DNA of 30,359 bases, taken from positions 1-30,359 of IMG/VR virus record IMGVR_UViG_3300034107_000235; one strand, 5' to 3'. The notes below the pieces were generated by a model. That model was not told where the DNA came from and did not search any database. It worked only from the letters and a program-made list of their open reading frames with translations. The position numbers were made by a program, and so were the translations under genes. This stretch comes from a virus. Shown piece by piece: positions 14,769 through 28,979 of the stretch; within the stretch, counting starts at the first letter, position 1, and each line of letters starts with the position of its first letter.

Positions 14769-15617
14769 ATGAGAGACCTTGGTATTGCTGACAGACTCCG
14801 CAACGCTGGTTTGGTGGTTGAGGAACAACCAGGTTGGCAAACTCGTGGCTCAGCTTTGTTTGCTCCAAGGGCTGTGATGTGGCACCACACCGCAAGCGCT
14901 ATGGGCAAGAACCTGCCAAGCCTGAACATTGTGACCAACGGCAGACCAGACCTTGCGGGCCCGTTGTGCCATGTGCTTACGGGTCGGGATAACTGCAACG
15001 TGGTGATTGCAGCGGGCAGGGCTAATCATGCTGGTGCTGGCAGGTGGAACGGTAGCAGTGTCGGCAACAGCGCCTACTGGGGTATCGAGGTAGAGAACGT
15101 CGGCACTATCGCTGAACCGTGGCGACCAGACCAACTGCAAAACGTCGCCGAAGTAACTGCAGCGTTGATTGGTTATAACGCTGGATTGGTTGCTGATTGC
15201 TGTATGCATAAAGAGTGGGCACCAACACGCAAGATCGACATGCACACCATCTCTGGCAATGAGATGCGTGCTCGTGTCATGCAACTCTGCATCGGCACAC
15301 CAGCACCACCACCAGAACCAGCACCACCCACACCAGCTGTTGTTGACCTTGCAGCAATCGCAGCAGGCATAGCAGCAGCATCCAAACAGATCGTCAAACA
15401 GGGCACCAAAGGTGATGCAGCGAAATGGGCGCAAGCCCTACTCAACAACAAGCTTGATGGGCCAGACCTGATAGTTGACGGGAACTTTGGGCCAGCATCA
15501 GTAGCGGCAGCTAAACGCTTTCAAACAAACGTCAAACGGTTCTTCAAACTCTCATCCAAACAGATGCCAGTAGACGGAATCATTGGGCCATCAACCTGGT
15601 ATTGGCTAACAAGATGA
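14769..15617 (+). CDS. Endolysin: N-acetylmuramoyl-L-alanine amidase with peptidoglycan-binding domain
   Basis: This 282-residue lysin cleaves the bond between muramic acid and the stem peptide. The N-terminal domain (about 20-170) is amidase_2 type: the zinc-binding His pattern is visible as VMWHHTAS (H39/H40), NHAGAG (H87, motif RANHAG) and CCMHKEWAPTRKIDMH (H147, with K153/D157-type residues). A proline linker (PAPPPEPAPPTPAVV, about 179-193) leads to a C-terminal peptidoglycan-binding domain with LLNNKLDGPDLIVDGNFGPASVAAAKRFQ and VDGIIGPSTWYWL, the repeat of the PG_binding_1 fold. No signal peptide is seen, so a holin is needed for export, and one follows immediately. Confidence 0.92.
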   Translation: MRDLGIADRLRNAGLVVEEQPGWQTRGSALFAPRAVMWHHTASAMGKNLPSLNIVTNGRPDLAGPLCHVLTGRDNCNVVIAAGRANHAGAGRWNGSSVGNSAYWGIEVENVGTIAEPWRPDQLQNVAEVTAALIGYNAGLVADCCMHKEWAPTRKIDMHTISGNEMRARVMQLCIGTPAPPPEPAPPTPAVVDLAAIAAGIAAASKQIVKQGTKGDAAKWAQALLNNKLDGPDLIVDGNFGPASVAAAKRFQTNVKRFFKLSSKQMPVDGIIGPSTWYWLTR

Positions 15618-18171: not shown

Positions 18172-18588
18172 CTAGCAGCCCGTACCGTTCCACGCTGAAG
18201 ACCAACCACTGTTCACCGTGTACACGGCAACAGCGTCTTGGATGTGTGGTGGCGCTGAGCGTGCCGTTGGGTAACCACCGTGGCCTGCACGGGCAGACAT
18301 GGTTTGCCAAGTGCTGTTCAGGTACTGATACGCACCACTAGCGGTGCTCACAGGGTTCTTCGCCTGATAGTTCCCACCACTCTCGTGCCGCCTGACGCAG
18401 GCGAGGAAACCACCTGGCGGGTTATGCGCTGGTGGTTCAGGTGGTGTTTGTAGCGATGCGATCACAGCCGCTTGTGATGGTCCATCCAATGCTTGGAACT
18501 GGGCTACCTGTTCACTGGTGCAGGCTGTAAAGAGTAATGGGATTGTAACGGCAAACAGTGTTGCTGCAGCTTTGATTGTGCGTATCAT
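18172..18588 (-). CDS. Rpf-like (resuscitation-promoting-factor/transglycosylase) secreted lipoprotein
   Basis: This 138-residue protein is the only minus-strand gene in the window. It has a positively charged start (MIRTIK), a hydrophobic signal segment and a lipobox-like PLLFTAC, with C23 the likely lipidation site. From about 58 lies a lysozyme-like transglycosylase domain: FLACVRRHESGGNYQAKNPV contains the expected catalytic Glu (E69) and ASGAYQYLNSTWQTM the substrate-binding part. C64 and the terminal C138 may form the disulfide seen in this family. A Pro-rich spacer lies between. The ATG at 18588 has a clear AGGAGA ribosome site; the longer reading frame above it has none. It could remodel host peptidoglycan, aid lysis, or stimulate dormant cells. 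Confidence 0.85.
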   Translation of the reverse strand: MIRTIKAAATLFAVTIPLLFTACTSEQVAQFQALDGPSQAAVIASLQTPPEPPAHNPPGGFLACVRRHESGGNYQAKNPVSTASGAYQYLNSTWQTMSARAGHGGYPTARSAPPHIQDAVAVYTVNSGWSSAWNGTGC

Positions 18589-18801
18589 TAAGTTGTCTCC
18601 TGGTCGGGATATGGAACAAGCCCACGCTGATGCGTGGGCTTCACCATTTACCCTAACAACTTCGGGCCTGCCGATGCACGCATACCTTCTCAAAAAGAAA
18701 TTTGAGAAATGCCACACCAAACCTTGCAACTCGTGCAACAATGGTTGCACGCCACCGAAACGGGGCGTACCACCACACCACCACAAAGGACAAACAACAC
18801 G
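18589..18801. promoter_or_regulatory. Divergent intergenic region with three inverted repeats
   Basis: This 213-nt region separates the minus-strand lipoprotein gene from the plus-strand early genes. It holds AAGCCCACGC/GCGTGGGCTT (18618-18627 and 18632-18641, 4-nt loop), TTCTCAAA/TTTGAGAA (18687-18694 and 18701-18708, 6-nt spacing) and CGTGCAAC/GTTGCACG (18732-18739 and 18744-18751, 4-nt spacing), the last with a nearby extra TTGCAAC. The short dyads could be operators. I did not find convincing -35/-10 sequences. Confidence 0.5.
18771..18796 (+). repeat. ACC-rich leader with AAAGGACAA, copy 1
   Basis: The stretch CACCACACCACCACAAAGGACAA just before the 18802 gene is nearly the same as that before the 19739 gene; AAAGGACAA also precedes the gene at 2520. 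It contains the ribosome binding site, so it looks like a reused translation-start leader. Confidence 0.6.
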
Positions 18802-23487: not shown

Positions 23488-23915
23488 CACCTGAAGAATG
23501 GGACATCGCAGCATGCAGATACCACCCAAAAGAACTGTTCTTCCCAGACCGAAACAACTTCGGTCAAGTATGGGACCGGGCCCGCAACATCTGCCAAGAA
23601 TGCCCAGTCAAAGCCGCATGCCTCCAAGACGGGCAACACGAGGTGTTCGGCATGTGGGGAGGGCTTAGCCCAGCAGAAAGGGGATACGGTCGCTCAAACA
23701 ACGCAGCACCAATGAGTACCGAACGCATCGCAGCCTTGCTCGAACACGTTGGCAAACCCATGACAGTCAACCAGGTATACCTAGCCTTACATCCGCATTA
23801 CACGAAACACGCCACACGCAACGCCTTAACCAGACTCGCACAAGGCGGCATCGCCACCCGCACCTCCAACGTCCAACCTGAACCAGACACCTACCACTGG
23901 AACCACCACACATGA
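23484..23915 (+). CDS. WhiB-family regulator fused to winged-helix-like domain (second copy)
   Basis: This 143-residue protein has the WhiB pattern AACRYHPKELFFP (C11), NICQECPVKAACL (C37, C40, C46) and VFGMWGGLSPAERGYG (GMWGG at 56-60), the conserved turn. The rest differs from ordinary WhiB proteins: residues about 79-127 (STERIAALLEHVGKPMTVNQVYLALHPHYTKHATRNALTRLAQGGIATRTS) look like a winged helix, with three helices and a short wing. It may thus bind both the sigma factor and DNA. ATGA overlaps tie it to the zinc ribbon gene and the PrimPol gene. The fusion is based on my reading and would need structure prediction. Confidence 0.78.
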   Translation: MTPEEWDIAACRYHPKELFFPDRNNFGQVWDRARNICQECPVKAACLQDGQHEVFGMWGGLSPAERGYGRSNNAAPMSTERIAALLEHVGKPMTVNQVYLALHPHYTKHATRNALTRLAQGGIATRTSNVQPEPDTYHWNHHT

Positions 23916-25990
23916 CCACAGACCCGCACAACACAGCCAACGAATACGCACAACGAGGATGGCGAGTAGTGCCCATTGTGCCAGGGGAGAAACGACCAGC
24001 GCTCAACCAGTGGCAACACCAAGCAACAACGGACACCACAACCATTGACCGATGGTGGATGGGTGAACACTCCGGCTGCGGAGTAGGCATCGCAACAGGA
24101 GAACAATCAGGCATCTGGGTCTTAGACATCGATGACCGAGACGCACTCTACGAACTGGAGAAGGAACACGGTGAGCTACCACCAACGCTCACATCGATTA
24201 CAGGTAGCGGCGGTGAGCATCAGGTGTACCTGTGGCCGGCAGATGGGCGCACCATCCACAACAGCGCCAGCGGGTTCATACAAGGCATAGATGTCAGGGG
24301 CGAAGGCGGCCAGATCGTCGCACCACCAACCATCCACCCCAACGGCAACCCATACGAATGGGACGAACAATGCACAGAAATCGCTGCAGCACCCGAATGG
24401 CTACTAGCCCTCATCTGCGACAAAGACCCACAACCCACCACCACACAACCCACCCCGAGCACCACCACCACAGACAGACCAGGAGACCTATGGGCACAGC
24501 AGACCGACTGGGCATACATCCTCATACCCGACGGCTGGCAACTCTCACACACCGACAACAACGGCGAACGCTACTGGGTACGACCCGGCAAAGAACCACG
24601 AGACGGCATCAGCGCAACCACAGGGCACACAGCAAACGACAACCTGCACGTGTTCACAAGCTCAGTACCCAACCTCAAAGCAGAAGAAACATACACAAAG
24701 CTCGGATACCTCGCAGCCATACACCACAACCACGACCACGCTGCAGCGGCACGAGCACTAGCAGCACAAGGATTCACCACACCACAACCAGACCTCAACA
24801 TCCTCAACCACCTCACCACAACCGCCAGCGGTGAACCAGATGCGAACCCGCTTGCCCCATACCTCATCGACTGGCAAAGCTTCTGGACCACAGACCACAC
24901 CGAAACAGAATGGCTACTCGAACCCCTCTTCGCAAAAGGCAGGGCACACGCAATCTACGCCGGAGCCAAAGTCGGCAAAAGCTTTGTCACACTCGCAGCA
25001 TGCGCAGCCCTAGCAACCGGCCAACCATTCCTACGCAAACCCCAAACAAACCCACAACACGTACTCTACGTCGATTACGAGATGACACCAACAGACCTAT
25101 ACGACCGCCTCACAGAATTCGGATACGAATCCACAATCTTCGACCACCTCCACTACGCACAACTACCAGTCATCGCACCCCTCGACACCTCACAAGGCGG
25201 CATCGCACTCTGCCAAGCCGCCCACGCAGTCGGCGCAGAAATAGTAATCATCGACACCACAGGCAGAGCAGTACAAGGCGAAGAAAACGACGCAGGCACC
25301 TACCAAGACTTCTACCGCCACACAGGCATGCAACTCAAACGCATGGGCATCACATGGGCACGCCTCGACCACGCAGGCAAAGACACCACCAGAGGCCAAC
25401 GAGGATCATCAGCAAAGAACGACGACGTAGACATAGTCGTCAACCTCACACGCACACCAACCGGCATCACATGGACAGCAACCCACAGGCGCATGTCCTG
25501 GTACCCAGAACAATCAGACATCACCATCGCAGAACTAGACGACCAAGCCACCTTCACAATGGAAGGCGGCAACCTCGAACAGTTCGAGCTCCACATCTTC
25601 GACCTCTCAGACTGGCTCGACGCTGAAGGAATACCAGCCAACGCACCCATCCGAGAATGCTGGGCACACACCAAAACAAACGGACCCGCAGGCACCCTCA
25701 AAAAGGATGTACAAGCGGCAGTCAGGTACCGCAAATCGGCACAGTATTCGCTGCGAAAAACAGGGCGGGACAAAGCTCGGGACACGCCTCCGGACAAAAC
25801 TGCGGGACAGACTGCGGGACACTCTGGGACAGAACCCGAAACCCATACAAACAAAGGCGGGACAGAGAGCGGGACACTGCGGGACACTATTGAGCAGGCA
25901 CAGCGGGACACTCTGTCACCCCGTAGGGGGGACAGAGTTCACGGCCCACAAACCGAACACCCAAACCAACCCACATACGAAGAGTTCTAA
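23912..25990 (+). CDS. Primase-polymerase/helicase replication protein
   Basis: This 692-residue protein is probably the phage replication enzyme. Residues about 8-165 form a bifunctional primase-polymerase (AEP) domain: GWRVVPIVPGEKRPAL, WVLDIDDRDAL (D72, D74), GEHQVYLW (H103) and GIDVRGEGGQIVAPPTIHPNG. A Thr/Pro linker (about 172-190) leads to a RecA-like helicase/ATPase: Walker A AGAKVGKSF (350-358), LYVDYEM and Walker B AEIVIIDTTGR (442-452), then RLDHAGKDTTRGQRGSSA. The pairing recalls plasmid and phage RepA-type initiators. The last 90 residues are low in complexity because the DNA there carries the GGGACA repeats. The ATG overlaps the upstream stop (ATGA). Confidence 0.86.
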   Translation: MTTDPHNTANEYAQRGWRVVPIVPGEKRPALNQWQHQATTDTTTIDRWWMGEHSGCGVGIATGEQSGIWVLDIDDRDALYELEKEHGELPPTLTSITGSGGEHQVYLWPADGRTIHNSASGFIQGIDVRGEGGQIVAPPTIHPNGNPYEWDEQCTEIAAAPEWLLALICDKDPQPTTTQPTPSTTTTDRPGDLWAQQTDWAYILIPDGWQLSHTDNNGERYWVRPGKEPRDGISATTGHTANDNLHVFTSSVPNLKAEETYTKLGYLAAIHHNHDHAAAARALAAQGFTTPQPDLNILNHLTTTASGEPDANPLAPYLIDWQSFWTTDHTETEWLLEPLFAKGRAHAIYAGAKVGKSFVTLAACAALATGQPFLRKPQTNPQHVLYVDYEMTPTDLYDRLTEFGYESTIFDHLHYAQLPVIAPLDTSQGGIALCQAAHAVGAEIVIIDTTGRAVQGEENDAGTYQDFYRHTGMQLKRMGITWARLDHAGKDTTRGQRGSSAKNDDVDIVVNLTRTPTGITWTATHRRMSWYPEQSDITIAELDDQATFTMEGGNLEQFELHIFDLSDWLDAEGIPANAPIRECWAHTKTNGPAGTLKKDVQAAVRYRKSAQYSLRKTGRDKARDTPPDKTAGQTAGHSGTEPETHTNKGGTESGTLRDTIEQAQRDTLSPRRGDRVHGPQTEHPNQPTYEEF
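25766..25937 (+). repeat. GGGACA iteron-like array with terminal hairpin (candidate replication origin)
   Basis: Eleven copies of (C/G/T)GGGACA or CCGGACA start at 25766, 25778, 25790, 25803, 25815, 25825, 25858, 25870, 25880, 25904 and 25928. The spacings are 12, 12, 13, 12, 10, 33, 12, 10, 24 and 24, close to one or two helical turns. The copies fall in all three codon phases of the host gene, so the selection is on DNA and not on protein. The array makes a local G-rich patch in a G-poor region. It ends in CTCTGTCACCCC (25911-25922) facing GGGGGGACAGAG (25926-25937), a 12-bp stem with one mismatch that includes the last copy. Confidence 0.75.
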
Positions 25991-26769: not shown

Positions 26770-26845
26770 TAACCTTGACGATCGCCACCACCACATGTAA
26801 CGCTTACGGCAGTCTCACCACACCCAGCCTAGAAGCAGGACAGTG
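26770..26845. other. Short intergenic region with weak TTGACG element
   Basis: This 76-nt gap contains TTGACG at 26775-26780 and TGTAAC at 26796-26801, 15 nt apart. The spacing is short and the second hexamer is poor, so a promoter here is only possible. AGCAGGACAG before 26846 serves as ribosome site for the HNH gene. Confidence 0.25.
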
Positions 26846-27121
26846 ATGGCATCCAAAGGCCGCAGCACTAGGCAGTGGAAGACCATCAGCCTTACCGTCT
26901 ACGCAGAAGAAACACATTGCTGGCTATGCGGACGAGCAGTAGACCACACCATCCAACCAAGAACACGATGGGCACACAGTGTCGATCACATCATCCCAAT
27001 CAGCCAAGGCGGCGCACCATACGACCGTGCCAACCTCCGCCTCGCACACCACGGCTGCAACAGCCGACGCTCCAACAACCGAGCGCAACCACAACGACCA
27101 GGCGCAACACGCCAATGGTAA
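26846..27121 (+). CDS. HNH endonuclease
   Basis: This 91-residue protein has an HNH fold: CWLCGRAVD (C25, C28), HSVDHIIPISQGG (H44, D47, H48) and NLRLAHHGCNSRR (N63, H69, C71, N72), the order of a Cys-framed HNH nuclease. HNH proteins next to terminase genes commonly act with TerL in genome cutting at the packaging site. A GTG start at 26843 is possible, but ATG 26846 is better placed to the AGCAGGACAG ribosome site. Its stop is followed by the DnaA-box region. Confidence 0.85.
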   Translation: MASKGRSTRQWKTISLTVYAEETHCWLCGRAVDHTIQPRTRWAHSVDHIIPISQGGAPYDRANLRLAHHGCNSRRSNNRAQPQRPGATRQW

Positions 27122-27355
27122 AACCTCACACACAGTGAGATAGTTATCCACAGATAACCTGCCCACCCCACGAAAGTTATCCACAGAAACCTGTGAACTT
27201 TTTTTAGGGGTGGGTGCTTGAGTATCCCGCTGCTTTTACAGGCCGATTTTTCTCTCCACAATTTCTCAACGTTATCCACAGATTTCTGGGGATAACCTCG
27301 GAAGCTTAAAAAGGTTGTCCACAGGGCCTGTGGATTGTTTCGGAAGGTGGTCACG
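27122..27355. promoter_or_regulatory. DnaA-box cluster, origin-like intergenic region
   Basis: This 234-nt non-coding stretch contains TTATCCACA at 27144-27152, 27177-27185 and 27272-27280, and TTGTCCACA at 27315-27323, all in the same orientation. TTATNCACA is the E. coli DnaA box and TTGTCCACA is the usual actinobacterial form. Weak reverse sites occur at 27287-27295 and 27329-27337. Small dyads overlap boxes (GTTATC-CACA-GATAAC at 27143-27158 and TCCACAG-GGC-CTGTGGA at 27318-27334). A T-rich stretch (27231-27270) between boxes could unwind. Confidence 0.82.
27173..27205 (+). terminator. Hairpin with T7 tract inside the DnaA-box region
   Basis: CACAG (27182-27186) pairs with CTGTG (27191-27195) and AAAGTT (27173-27178) with AACTTT (27196-27201), with a 3-nt bulge on the left arm and a T7 tract at 27199-27205. 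It is a plausible end for early transcripts. DnaA box 2 (27177-27185) overlaps the left arm, so bound DnaA and termination may interfere. Confidence 0.6.
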
Positions 27356-27622
27356 TTGAGTGAGATTCTTGATGCTGCGCAAAGCGGTGACCGTCGTGCG
27401 ACCCTTGAGGCTTTGCGTGACCAGATCGCTTTGGTGATCGACGCACCTTCAACAACGGGTGCGGAGTTGGCTTCGCTTGCACGGCAGATGATTGTGGTTA
27501 CTGAGATCCTTGAGGGGATCTCTGATGGGCAGGCGGTGAATCTTGTTAATGACCTCGCAGCAAAACGAGCTTCTCGGAAGCCAGGTGCCAACACATCTGG
27601 TCGTGCCGCCAGCGGCGGTTAG
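27356..27622 (+). CDS. Terminase small subunit
   Basis: This 88-residue protein lies directly before TerL. LSEILDAAQSGDRRATLEALRDQIALVIDAPSTTGAELASLARQMIVVTEILEGISDGQ matches the short helical TerS type of actinophages (leading SEILDAAQSGDRxAxLEALRDxIA and LARQMxxVxxEI). The TTG at 27356 is chosen because GGAAGG stands about 8-14 nt before it; the frame is open up to 27335, where another TTG exists. TerS binds phage DNA and loads TerL. It overlaps the TerL start by 74 nt. Confidence 0.75.
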   Translation: MSEILDAAQSGDRRATLEALRDQIALVIDAPSTTGAELASLARQMIVVTEILEGISDGQAVNLVNDLAAKRASRKPGANTSGRAASGG

Positions 27623-28979
27623 TTCTGCTGGTGCGGAAGCTGTCGAGCTTGCTGCGCTTGCCGGTTTGTTTCTTGATCCGTGGCAAGAGTTGGTGTTGCA
27701 GTCGGCTTTGTCGGAGCGTGCGGATGGGCGGTGGGCTGCGCTCGAGGTTGGTCTTGTGGTTCCACGCCAGAATGGCAAGGGTTCGATACTTGAGGCTCGT
27801 GAGCTTGCAGGTATGTTCTTGCTGGGCGAAGAGCTCATCTTGCATAGCGCTCATGAGTTTAAGACTTCGCAAGAGGCGTTCCGCAGGGTTCGTTACCTGA
27901 TAGAAAATTGTGATGACCTTGACCGGATGGTGAAGCGGGTTCGCACTTCGAATGGTGAAGAGGCCATTGAGTGTAAGAACGGTTCGAGGTTGCGGTTTGT
28001 TGCTAGGTCTTCTGGGTCTGGTCGTGGGTTCACTGGTGATTGCATCATTTTTGATGAGGCTTACAAGCTGAGTGCGGCGATGATGGCAGCGTTGTTGCCT
28101 ACTTTGTCTGCTCGACCTAATCCGCAACTCTGGTATACGACGAGTTCTCCGCCTGAGATTGACGAGTTTTCGGAGCAGATCCGGCGCACGAAGGTGCGTG
28201 CGATGTCTGAGAACCCTGGCAGGTTGTGTTGGGTTGAGTGGTCTTCTGAGTTGAACGCTGATCCTGCTGATCCTGCGGTGTGGGCTGCGGCGAATCCTGC
28301 GATGGGTCGTAGGATCGATCCGGAGTTTGTTGAGGCTGAGCGGCAGACGATGCCAGCGGAGGCGTTTGCTGTTGAGCGTCTTGGTGTGTGGAAGTCGCAG
28401 AGTTTGAGTGCGAAGATCCCGTTGCATGCTTGGGAAGCTGTGCAGGTTGATGTGTCTCCTGGCACTGATGGTGTTGTGTTCGGTGTGGATTTGCCGCCTG
28501 ATCGTTCGTCGGTTTCGGTTGCTGCGTGTTCGCCAGCTGGCGAGTACGGGTTTGCTGTTGAGCTTGCGGATCGTCGGCCCGGTACTGATTGGCTGATCCC
28601 ACGTTGCATCGAGCTTGCTGATCGTTACCCTGGCAGCGTGTTTGTCATTGATGGTGTTGGGCCGTCGGCTGGGTTCATTACCGATCTGCAGAATCTTGGA
28701 TTGACCGTGCGGACCACTTCGGCTCGTGAGTATTCCGAGGCTTGCACAAGGCTGTTTGATGCTGTGATGGCTAAGAGTGTTACGCACACTGGCCAGTCTG
28801 AGCTTGTCGCTGCGGTGATGGGCGCTAATACTCGCAAGCTTGGCGATTCGTGGGCATGGTCGAGAACGTCGAGCAGTGTGGATATTTCACCGCTGGTTGC
28901 TGTGACGTTAGCTTTGTGGGGTTGCGCTACTGCTCGTGAGGCTCCTGAGCCTACGCTTCCGCAGGTGTTTGCTTACTAG
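27549..28979 (+). CDS. Terminase large subunit
   Basis: This 476-residue protein is the packaging motor and nuclease. The ATPase part has VPRQNGKGS (residues 71-79) as Walker A, CIIFDEAYKL (165-174) as Walker B and YTTSSPP as coupling motif (about 196-202). The nuclease part has FGVDLPPDRSSVSVA (D314) and VFVIDGVGP (D368), metal-binding acids of the RNase H-like fold. The length fits actinophage TerL. ATG 27549 is chosen; a TTG at 27543 is in frame. The HNH gene and TerS upstream fit a cos or HNH-assisted cutting system. Confidence 0.93.
   Translation: MTSQQNELLGSQVPTHLVVPPAAVSSAGAEAVELAALAGLFLDPWQELVLQSALSERADGRWAALEVGLVVPRQNGKGSILEARELAGMFLLGEELILHSAHEFKTSQEAFRRVRYLIENCDDLDRMVKRVRTSNGEEAIECKNGSRLRFVARSSGSGRGFTGDCIIFDEAYKLSAAMMAALLPTLSARPNPQLWYTTSSPPEIDEFSEQIRRTKVRAMSENPGRLCWVEWSSELNADPADPAVWAAANPAMGRRIDPEFVEAERQTMPAEAFAVERLGVWKSQSLSAKIPLHAWEAVQVDVSPGTDGVVFGVDLPPDRSSVSVAACSPAGEYGFAVELADRRPGTDWLIPRCIELADRYPGSVFVIDGVGPSAGFITDLQNLGLTVRTTSAREYSEACTRLFDAVMAKSVTHTGQSELVAAVMGANTRKLGDSWAWSRTSSSVDISPLVAVTLALWGCATAREAPEPTLPQVFAY

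Follow-up and report, generated by a model that had tools for sequence, protein, structure and literature searches.

The stretch of viral DNA analysed here, referred to as the window, is 30,359 bp long and represents a phage genome, complete or nearly so, that was opened at an arbitrary point, since mapping to relatives shows that the sequences at its start and finish are neighbours in L003 and L007, with only some 5 nt absent. The encoded proteins comprise an HK97-type structural set, two WhiB-like proteins, a primase-polymerase (Prim-Pol)/helicase, an HNH endonuclease and a terminase. Among cultured phages, actinobacteriophages have the most closely related terminases. The window is best explained as a 30-kb phage of the actinophage type, and the infected host is probably an actinobacterium. 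No RNA family or tRNA was found within the window. One reading frame, Transglycosylase/Rpf-like (18172–18786), lies on the minus strand, opposite to nearly all other genes.

The genes surrounding the locus are all on the plus strand. The Prim-Pol/helicase gene (23912–25990; Pfam Prim-Pol 9e-44, AAA_25 3e-21) likely encodes the replication protein, judging by these domains. It is followed by the HNH endonuclease (26843–27121; Pfam PF01844 6e-9, phrog_338 7e-25) at the right end of the genome, a type of enzyme that is the usual partner of cos-cleaving terminases. The small terminase subunit TerS (27356–27622; phrog_1459 4e-8 with the longer frame) starts with a TTG codon that is kept in relatives and preceded by the ribosome-binding-site-like GGAAGG. 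Its predicted structure is small and all-helical (mean pLDDT 73), with no clear helix-turn-helix, and a search of solved structures for TerS relatives returned only chance-level matches. The large subunit TerL (phrog_9 2e-84) is listed as the frame 27543–28979, although its true start may be near 27630. A promoter-like TTGACG-N17-TAACGCT precedes HNH (26775–26804); it is conserved, and present in the relative G003 despite the swapped downstream module of that genome.

The gap between the HNH stop at 27121 and the TerS start at 27356 is non-coding and contains four DnaA boxes, all on the plus strand, starting at 27144, 27177, 27272 and 27315. The earlier note had described four boxes of the same orientation in this terminase-side gap, and all four are exact matches where it placed them, forming a closely spaced cluster of exact TTATNCACA/TTGTCCACA 9-mers. 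There is no other exact TTRTCCACA in the 30,359-bp window. In 300 genomes generated by an order-2 Markov model, the mean number of TTRTCCACA on the plus strand was 0.20, and two or more never fell within a single 200-bp stretch; the Poisson probability of four boxes in 180 bp anywhere is about 6e-11. A chance origin of the cluster is thus rejected, in agreement with what the note had estimated.

Most of the boxes constitute one half of an inverted dyad. Site 1 (27143–27158, plus strand) combines TTATCCACA at 27144–27152 with a short inverted partner, GATAAC. Site 2 (27173–27205, plus strand) places TTATCCACA at 27177–27185 within an imperfect dyad that also resembles a terminator hairpin with a T-tract, consisting of the stem CACAG/CTGTG followed by AACTTTTTTT; the T-rich patch of the gap is therefore mostly the T tail of this terminator-like hairpin following HNH. 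Site 3 (27271–27296, plus strand) is the 26-bp dyad GTTATCCACAGATTTCTGGGGATAAC, in which TTATCCACA at 27272–27280 is paired with a one-mismatch box, TTATCCCCA, on the minus strand at 27287–27295. Site 4 (27314–27337, plus strand), an imperfect dyad GTTGTCCACAGGGCCTGTGGATTG with TTGTCCACA at 27315–27323, lies 18 bp upstream of TerS and is terminator-like on the minus strand. The single-strand fold has z = −4.7. The only promoter-like match in the gap (27235–27262) is near the shuffle expectation. A separate short hairpin, CTCAC-N5-GTGAG, directly follows the HNH stop (27125–27139) and recurs in G009 as well as in most close relatives.

The earlier note had made its reading depend on conservation of the boxes in related phages, and the close relatives do keep them. 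The site 3 dyad is invariant in all eight close sequences that span it, and the site 2 box is unchanged in five of five. Site 1 reads TTATACACA in G001, TTATCCACA in L003 and L007, and ATATCCACA plus two extra boxes in G004; the site 4 box is TTATCCACA in L006 and L007, and G008 and G009 carry 26-bp homologous dyads there. Within the aligned close group, both box changes lead to other DnaA consensus boxes (TTATACACA; TTATCCACA/TTGTCCACA), while the left side of the array is rebuilt in L007 and G004, with three boxes versus two. Variable columns number 2 of 36 in the boxes versus 39 of 213 elsewhere (P = 0.085, not significant alone), and the alignment weakly supports purifying selection on the boxes.

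The position of the gap within the phage genome is indicated by contig ends of relatives, the relatives mapped on the window having been found with TerL, Prim-Pol and HNH. Seven such ends from close relatives map to 27225–27244: L002, L004, L005, L006 and L008 start at 27226–27244, G001 ends at 27237 and G004 at 27225 (L002 and G001 come from opposite ends of a single contig). G003, G007 and G009 also end between the end of the replication/HNH region and TerS, and in G001, G003, G007 and G009 TerS occupies one end and the HNH or Prim-Pol region the opposite one. Breakage of independent assemblies at the same point is characteristic of fixed virion ends. On this sequence evidence, the gap, with the HNH endonuclease and terminase genes adjacent, is almost certainly a cos site, the physical ends of the virion DNA lying at 27225–27244. 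The ends are presumably cohesive; 12–15 nt are common to both contig ends in G001 and G009, which is suggestive only. The predicted cut falls between boxes 2 and 3, so that two boxes lie on each side, roughly symmetric about 27236. Immediately to its right is a conserved CT-rich block, TTTTTCTCTCC (27247–27257, plus strand), and a similar block is recognisable in the distant relatives L010, L013, L018, G003, G008 and G009. The cos identity of the gap, its flanking by boxes, the dyads and the skew inversion described below were absent from the earlier note.

In bacteria, DnaA is the master initiator of chromosome replication, and the distribution of the dyad suggests that the same protein recognises the boxes. 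When 257 Gb of bacterial and archaeal sequence from 85,000 genomes was scanned, the perfect dyad GTTATCCACAG-N4-CTGTGGATAAC was found at only 27 places, and flanking proteins identified dnaA or dnaN as the neighbour in 7 of the 10 chromosomal loci tested. Among viral contigs, a slightly looser dyad pattern occurs in 87 stretches from at least a dozen unrelated lineages, and direct TTATCCACAG pairs were found at least 120 times versus 8 for a reversed control pattern. The identical dyad is present in many unrelated phages with different terminases. Phages whose terminases are unrelated share the motif with chromosomal origins; this is best explained by a single host protein, DnaA, and the boxes are probably true host DnaA-binding sites.

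The strand composition of the window inverts at the same place. The minima of cumulative GC, T-A and keto skew are at 27279, 27189 and 27191, respectively, and the GC and keto maxima are near 15,219, about halfway round the genome. The boxes thus lie no more than about 100 bp from the inversion, which is a classic signal of a replication origin. Keto skew at third codon positions is about −0.65 in Prim-Pol and HNH, +0.36 in TerS and +0.64 in TerL; as the neighbouring genes are all on the plus strand and their third positions flip, gene direction is rejected as the cause of the inversion. The AT content of the gap is 0.48–0.53, and no obvious unwinding element was found in it apart from one short T run. 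The skew is graded in the window, G001 and G003, strongest beside cos on both sides and fading toward 15 kb, unlike the flat skew per arm that simple bidirectional replication would predict.

The boxes and the origin signal do not consistently occur together among relatives. G003 (31,383 bp) is 94% identical to the window in Prim-Pol and 99% in portal and capsid, but only 38.5% in TerL. It has a different HNH-TerS-TerL module and contains no TTRTNCACA anywhere, yet the skew inversion at its ends is kept. G005 and G007, with Prim-Pol 48–50% identical, likewise have a skew inversion at or near cos and no boxes at cos. Conversely, G008 and G009 resemble the window in TerL (68%) and HNH (79%) and differ in the portal and the helicase part of Prim-Pol; they have homologous dyads at cos (GTTGTCCACAGGGAAAAGTGGATAAC and GTTACCCACAGACAAAAGGGGATAAC), with the exact DnaA box lost in G009, and no skew inversion. 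The pattern in G003 versus G008 and G009 indicates that skew follows the replication module and boxes follow the packaging module, although skew changes slowly, the G003 signal may be inherited, and G003 is a single recent clean swap. Replication of this phage group appears, from the skew, to start at or very near cos, with the boxes not needed. Ten unrelated dyad phages have no clear skew inversion at the dyad. The proposal of the earlier note that the cluster marks a phage origin using host DnaA therefore stands in part: probable DnaA-binding sites and skew inversion coincide in the window, but the boxes do not fix the origin, given G003 with the same replication protein and G008 and G009 with box-like dyads. 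As a near-identical phage with a swapped HNH-cos-TerS-TerL module, G003 (L061; L103, L104) amounts to a natural knock-out for the boxes. A different placement is seen in G007 and G005, which have two copies and one copy of TTATCCACA, respectively, on the opposite strand at the 3' coding end of Prim-Pol (L065:7392-7424, L063:7871), unlike the window, where this part of the gene has no boxes.

Similar clusters recur beside other terminases. Sf6-like TerS is encoded in 38 of 73 new dyad loci, and in those inspected the dyad occupies the gap between TerS and a phrog_2-type TerL. In L128, L147 and L185 the dyad is just upstream of a phrog_38-type TerL, and in a fourth group (L304, L327, L332, L284) a direct box pair precedes an HNH-TerL pair by about 0.9–1 kb. 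DnaA-box clusters near terminase genes are thus found in at least four unrelated terminase backgrounds. Distances to TerL, recognised by three PHROG families, were compared in 14 longer records found via direct box pairs, excluding two further records with TerL (G050 and G055) whose box positions were not listed. Five of the 14 have the cluster at most 1.4 kb upstream of TerL (0.6 expected, P 2e-4) and seven have it at most 2.5 kb upstream (1.0 expected), an enrichment that is suggestive only because the records are partly related and the P value of 2e-4 ignores relatedness. The remark in the earlier note that few phages are described with such a cluster beside the packaging genes agrees with the literature searched, but the arrangement recurs in uncultivated phages.

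These results lead us to propose, tentatively, that the gap is cos and that the boxes are a host-DnaA-binding element of the cos module, two per side. The boxes would belong to an HNH-cos-TerS-TerL module. Once the genome has circularised or formed concatemers, host DnaA would bind where its ends are joined, and the phage would borrow it for architecture or timing at cos, in the way that lambda uses IHF at cosB. DnaA could, for instance, shape cos for HNH or terminase, or it could restrain read-through or cutting until it is diluted over many genome copies; an effect on packaging or timing is suggested here by analogy. Against this reading, the nearest cultured phages with this layout, BaileyBlu and PA6, are without boxes at cos, so that a role of DnaA would be confined to this lineage; the dyads of G009 have lost the exact box; G003 is the single clean module swap; and the skew inversion sits exactly at the boxes, with all three minima at 27189–27279, maxima halfway round and a very strong flip at third codon positions. 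An origin that is assisted by DnaA and overlaps cos, where DnaA would open or mark the site for the Prim-Pol/helicase to start bidirectional replication, is accordingly a possibility to be taken seriously, if a somewhat doubtful one. RepA and DnaA act together at plasmid and P1-type origins; here the Prim-Pol/helicase gene is 1.2 kb upstream, 7 of 10 chromosomal dyads tested adjoin dnaA or dnaN, and among other loci the dyad of L159 lies within or close to a DnaD-like loader gene and that of L157 follows a Prim-Pol-type gene. The relatives weaken a pure origin reading, however: G003 has the same replication protein and skew with no boxes (though its skew could be inherited), G005 and G007 have an inversion at or near cos but no boxes at that place, and G008, G009 and the ten unrelated dyad phages carry dyads with no inversion. 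Nor is there an obvious unwinding element beyond the short T run.

The near symmetry of the sites around cos, their dyad form and their association with the terminase module would also suit cosB-like sites that are bound by the TerS or HNH of the phage itself and whose likeness to DnaA boxes is coincidental, and G009 retains the dyad shape with the exact boxes gone. We consider this unlikely, as phages whose terminases are unrelated carry exactly the same dyad, and so do chromosomal origins; the TerS model, in which no clear DNA-binding fold is predicted, is weak evidence in the same direction, and no solved relative of TerS was found. Decidedly unlikely is the notion that the boxes titrate DnaA and halt host initiation, or that sites 3 and 4, which are directly upstream of TerS, block the TerS operon until copy number rises. 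The turnover of box number and position on the left side (two or three) is expected if occupancy alone matters, but a pure titration site need not be at cos nor be lost with the terminase module, and the sole promoter-like match in the gap is close to what shuffled sequence gives. Finally, the terminator-like character of site 2 on the plus strand and site 4 on the minus strand, together with the single-strand fold, could mean that hairpins insulate cos from transcription on both sides and that the box sequence is incidental. This is highly improbable, given that site 3 has no T tail, that L007 and G004 have directly repeated boxes that form hardly any hairpin or none, and that a hairpin does not require identity of a 9-mer.

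The arrangement shares elements with several known systems. Bacterial oriC contains the same 9-mers and the same 26-bp inverted dyad, likewise grouped in a non-coding region; here, by contrast, only four boxes are present, in a phage and around cos, with no unwinding element recognised, whereas several chromosomal dyads of Clostridia and lactobacilli are accompanied by 10–16 boxes within 400 bp. At the cos site of phage lambda, cosB consists of terminase sites (gpNu1 R) plus a site for host IHF. The module proposed here would be alike in that protein sites adjoin the cut and a host DNA-binding protein helps, but DnaA boxes take the place of the IHF and gpNu1 R sites, the cut has sites to its left and right, and the module is of the HNH type. 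The order HNH, cos, terminase is found at the linear ends of Pahexavirus (Propionibacterium phage PA6) and Arthrobacter phage BaileyBlu, with related TerL (41% for BaileyBlu, 34% for a Pahexavirus), but neither PA6 nor BaileyBlu has DnaA boxes at or near its genome ends. P1 and iteron-plasmid origins also have a few DnaA boxes adjoining the replication site. Unlike these, no iterons were found here, the initiator would be a Prim-Pol/helicase, and the boxes can be separated from the origin that the skew marks. For phage T5, DnaA boxes have been described together with repeats and palindromes in the non-coding injection stop signal region (PMC13250531); T5 is unrelated, however, and its signal ends the first 8–9% of injected DNA and is not cos.

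DNA searches yielded no convincing cluster in cultured phages, and DnaA boxes tied to cos or terminase were not found in the open-licence literature searched. DnaA boxes in phages are known, the T5 region being one example, whereas a cluster around cos and its recurrence beside unrelated terminases were not found in that literature. We speculate, with considerable doubt, that host DnaA could serve as a phage packaging or genome-end factor at cos or beside terminase, so that cutting and packaging are coupled to how replication stands in the cell, and that this was reached independently in several unrelated terminase lineages. If phages do place DnaA sites at the point of cutting and packaging, DnaA would act beyond replication, as a sensor or helper of virus assembly. 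Recurrence beside unrelated terminases makes such a role testable, and G003 offers a box-free natural comparison.

Other placements of the boxes were also seen. L134 and L190 (G036:27347-27440 and G033:27117-27210), from an unrelated phage, have seven tandem copies of TTATCCACA in about 95 bp, with a separate dyad cluster 6.7 kb away. In the inspected loci L127, L140, L142, L144, L153, L155, L161 and L182, a large serine recombinase gene has its 3' end about 60–140 bp from the dyad, which may overlap attP.
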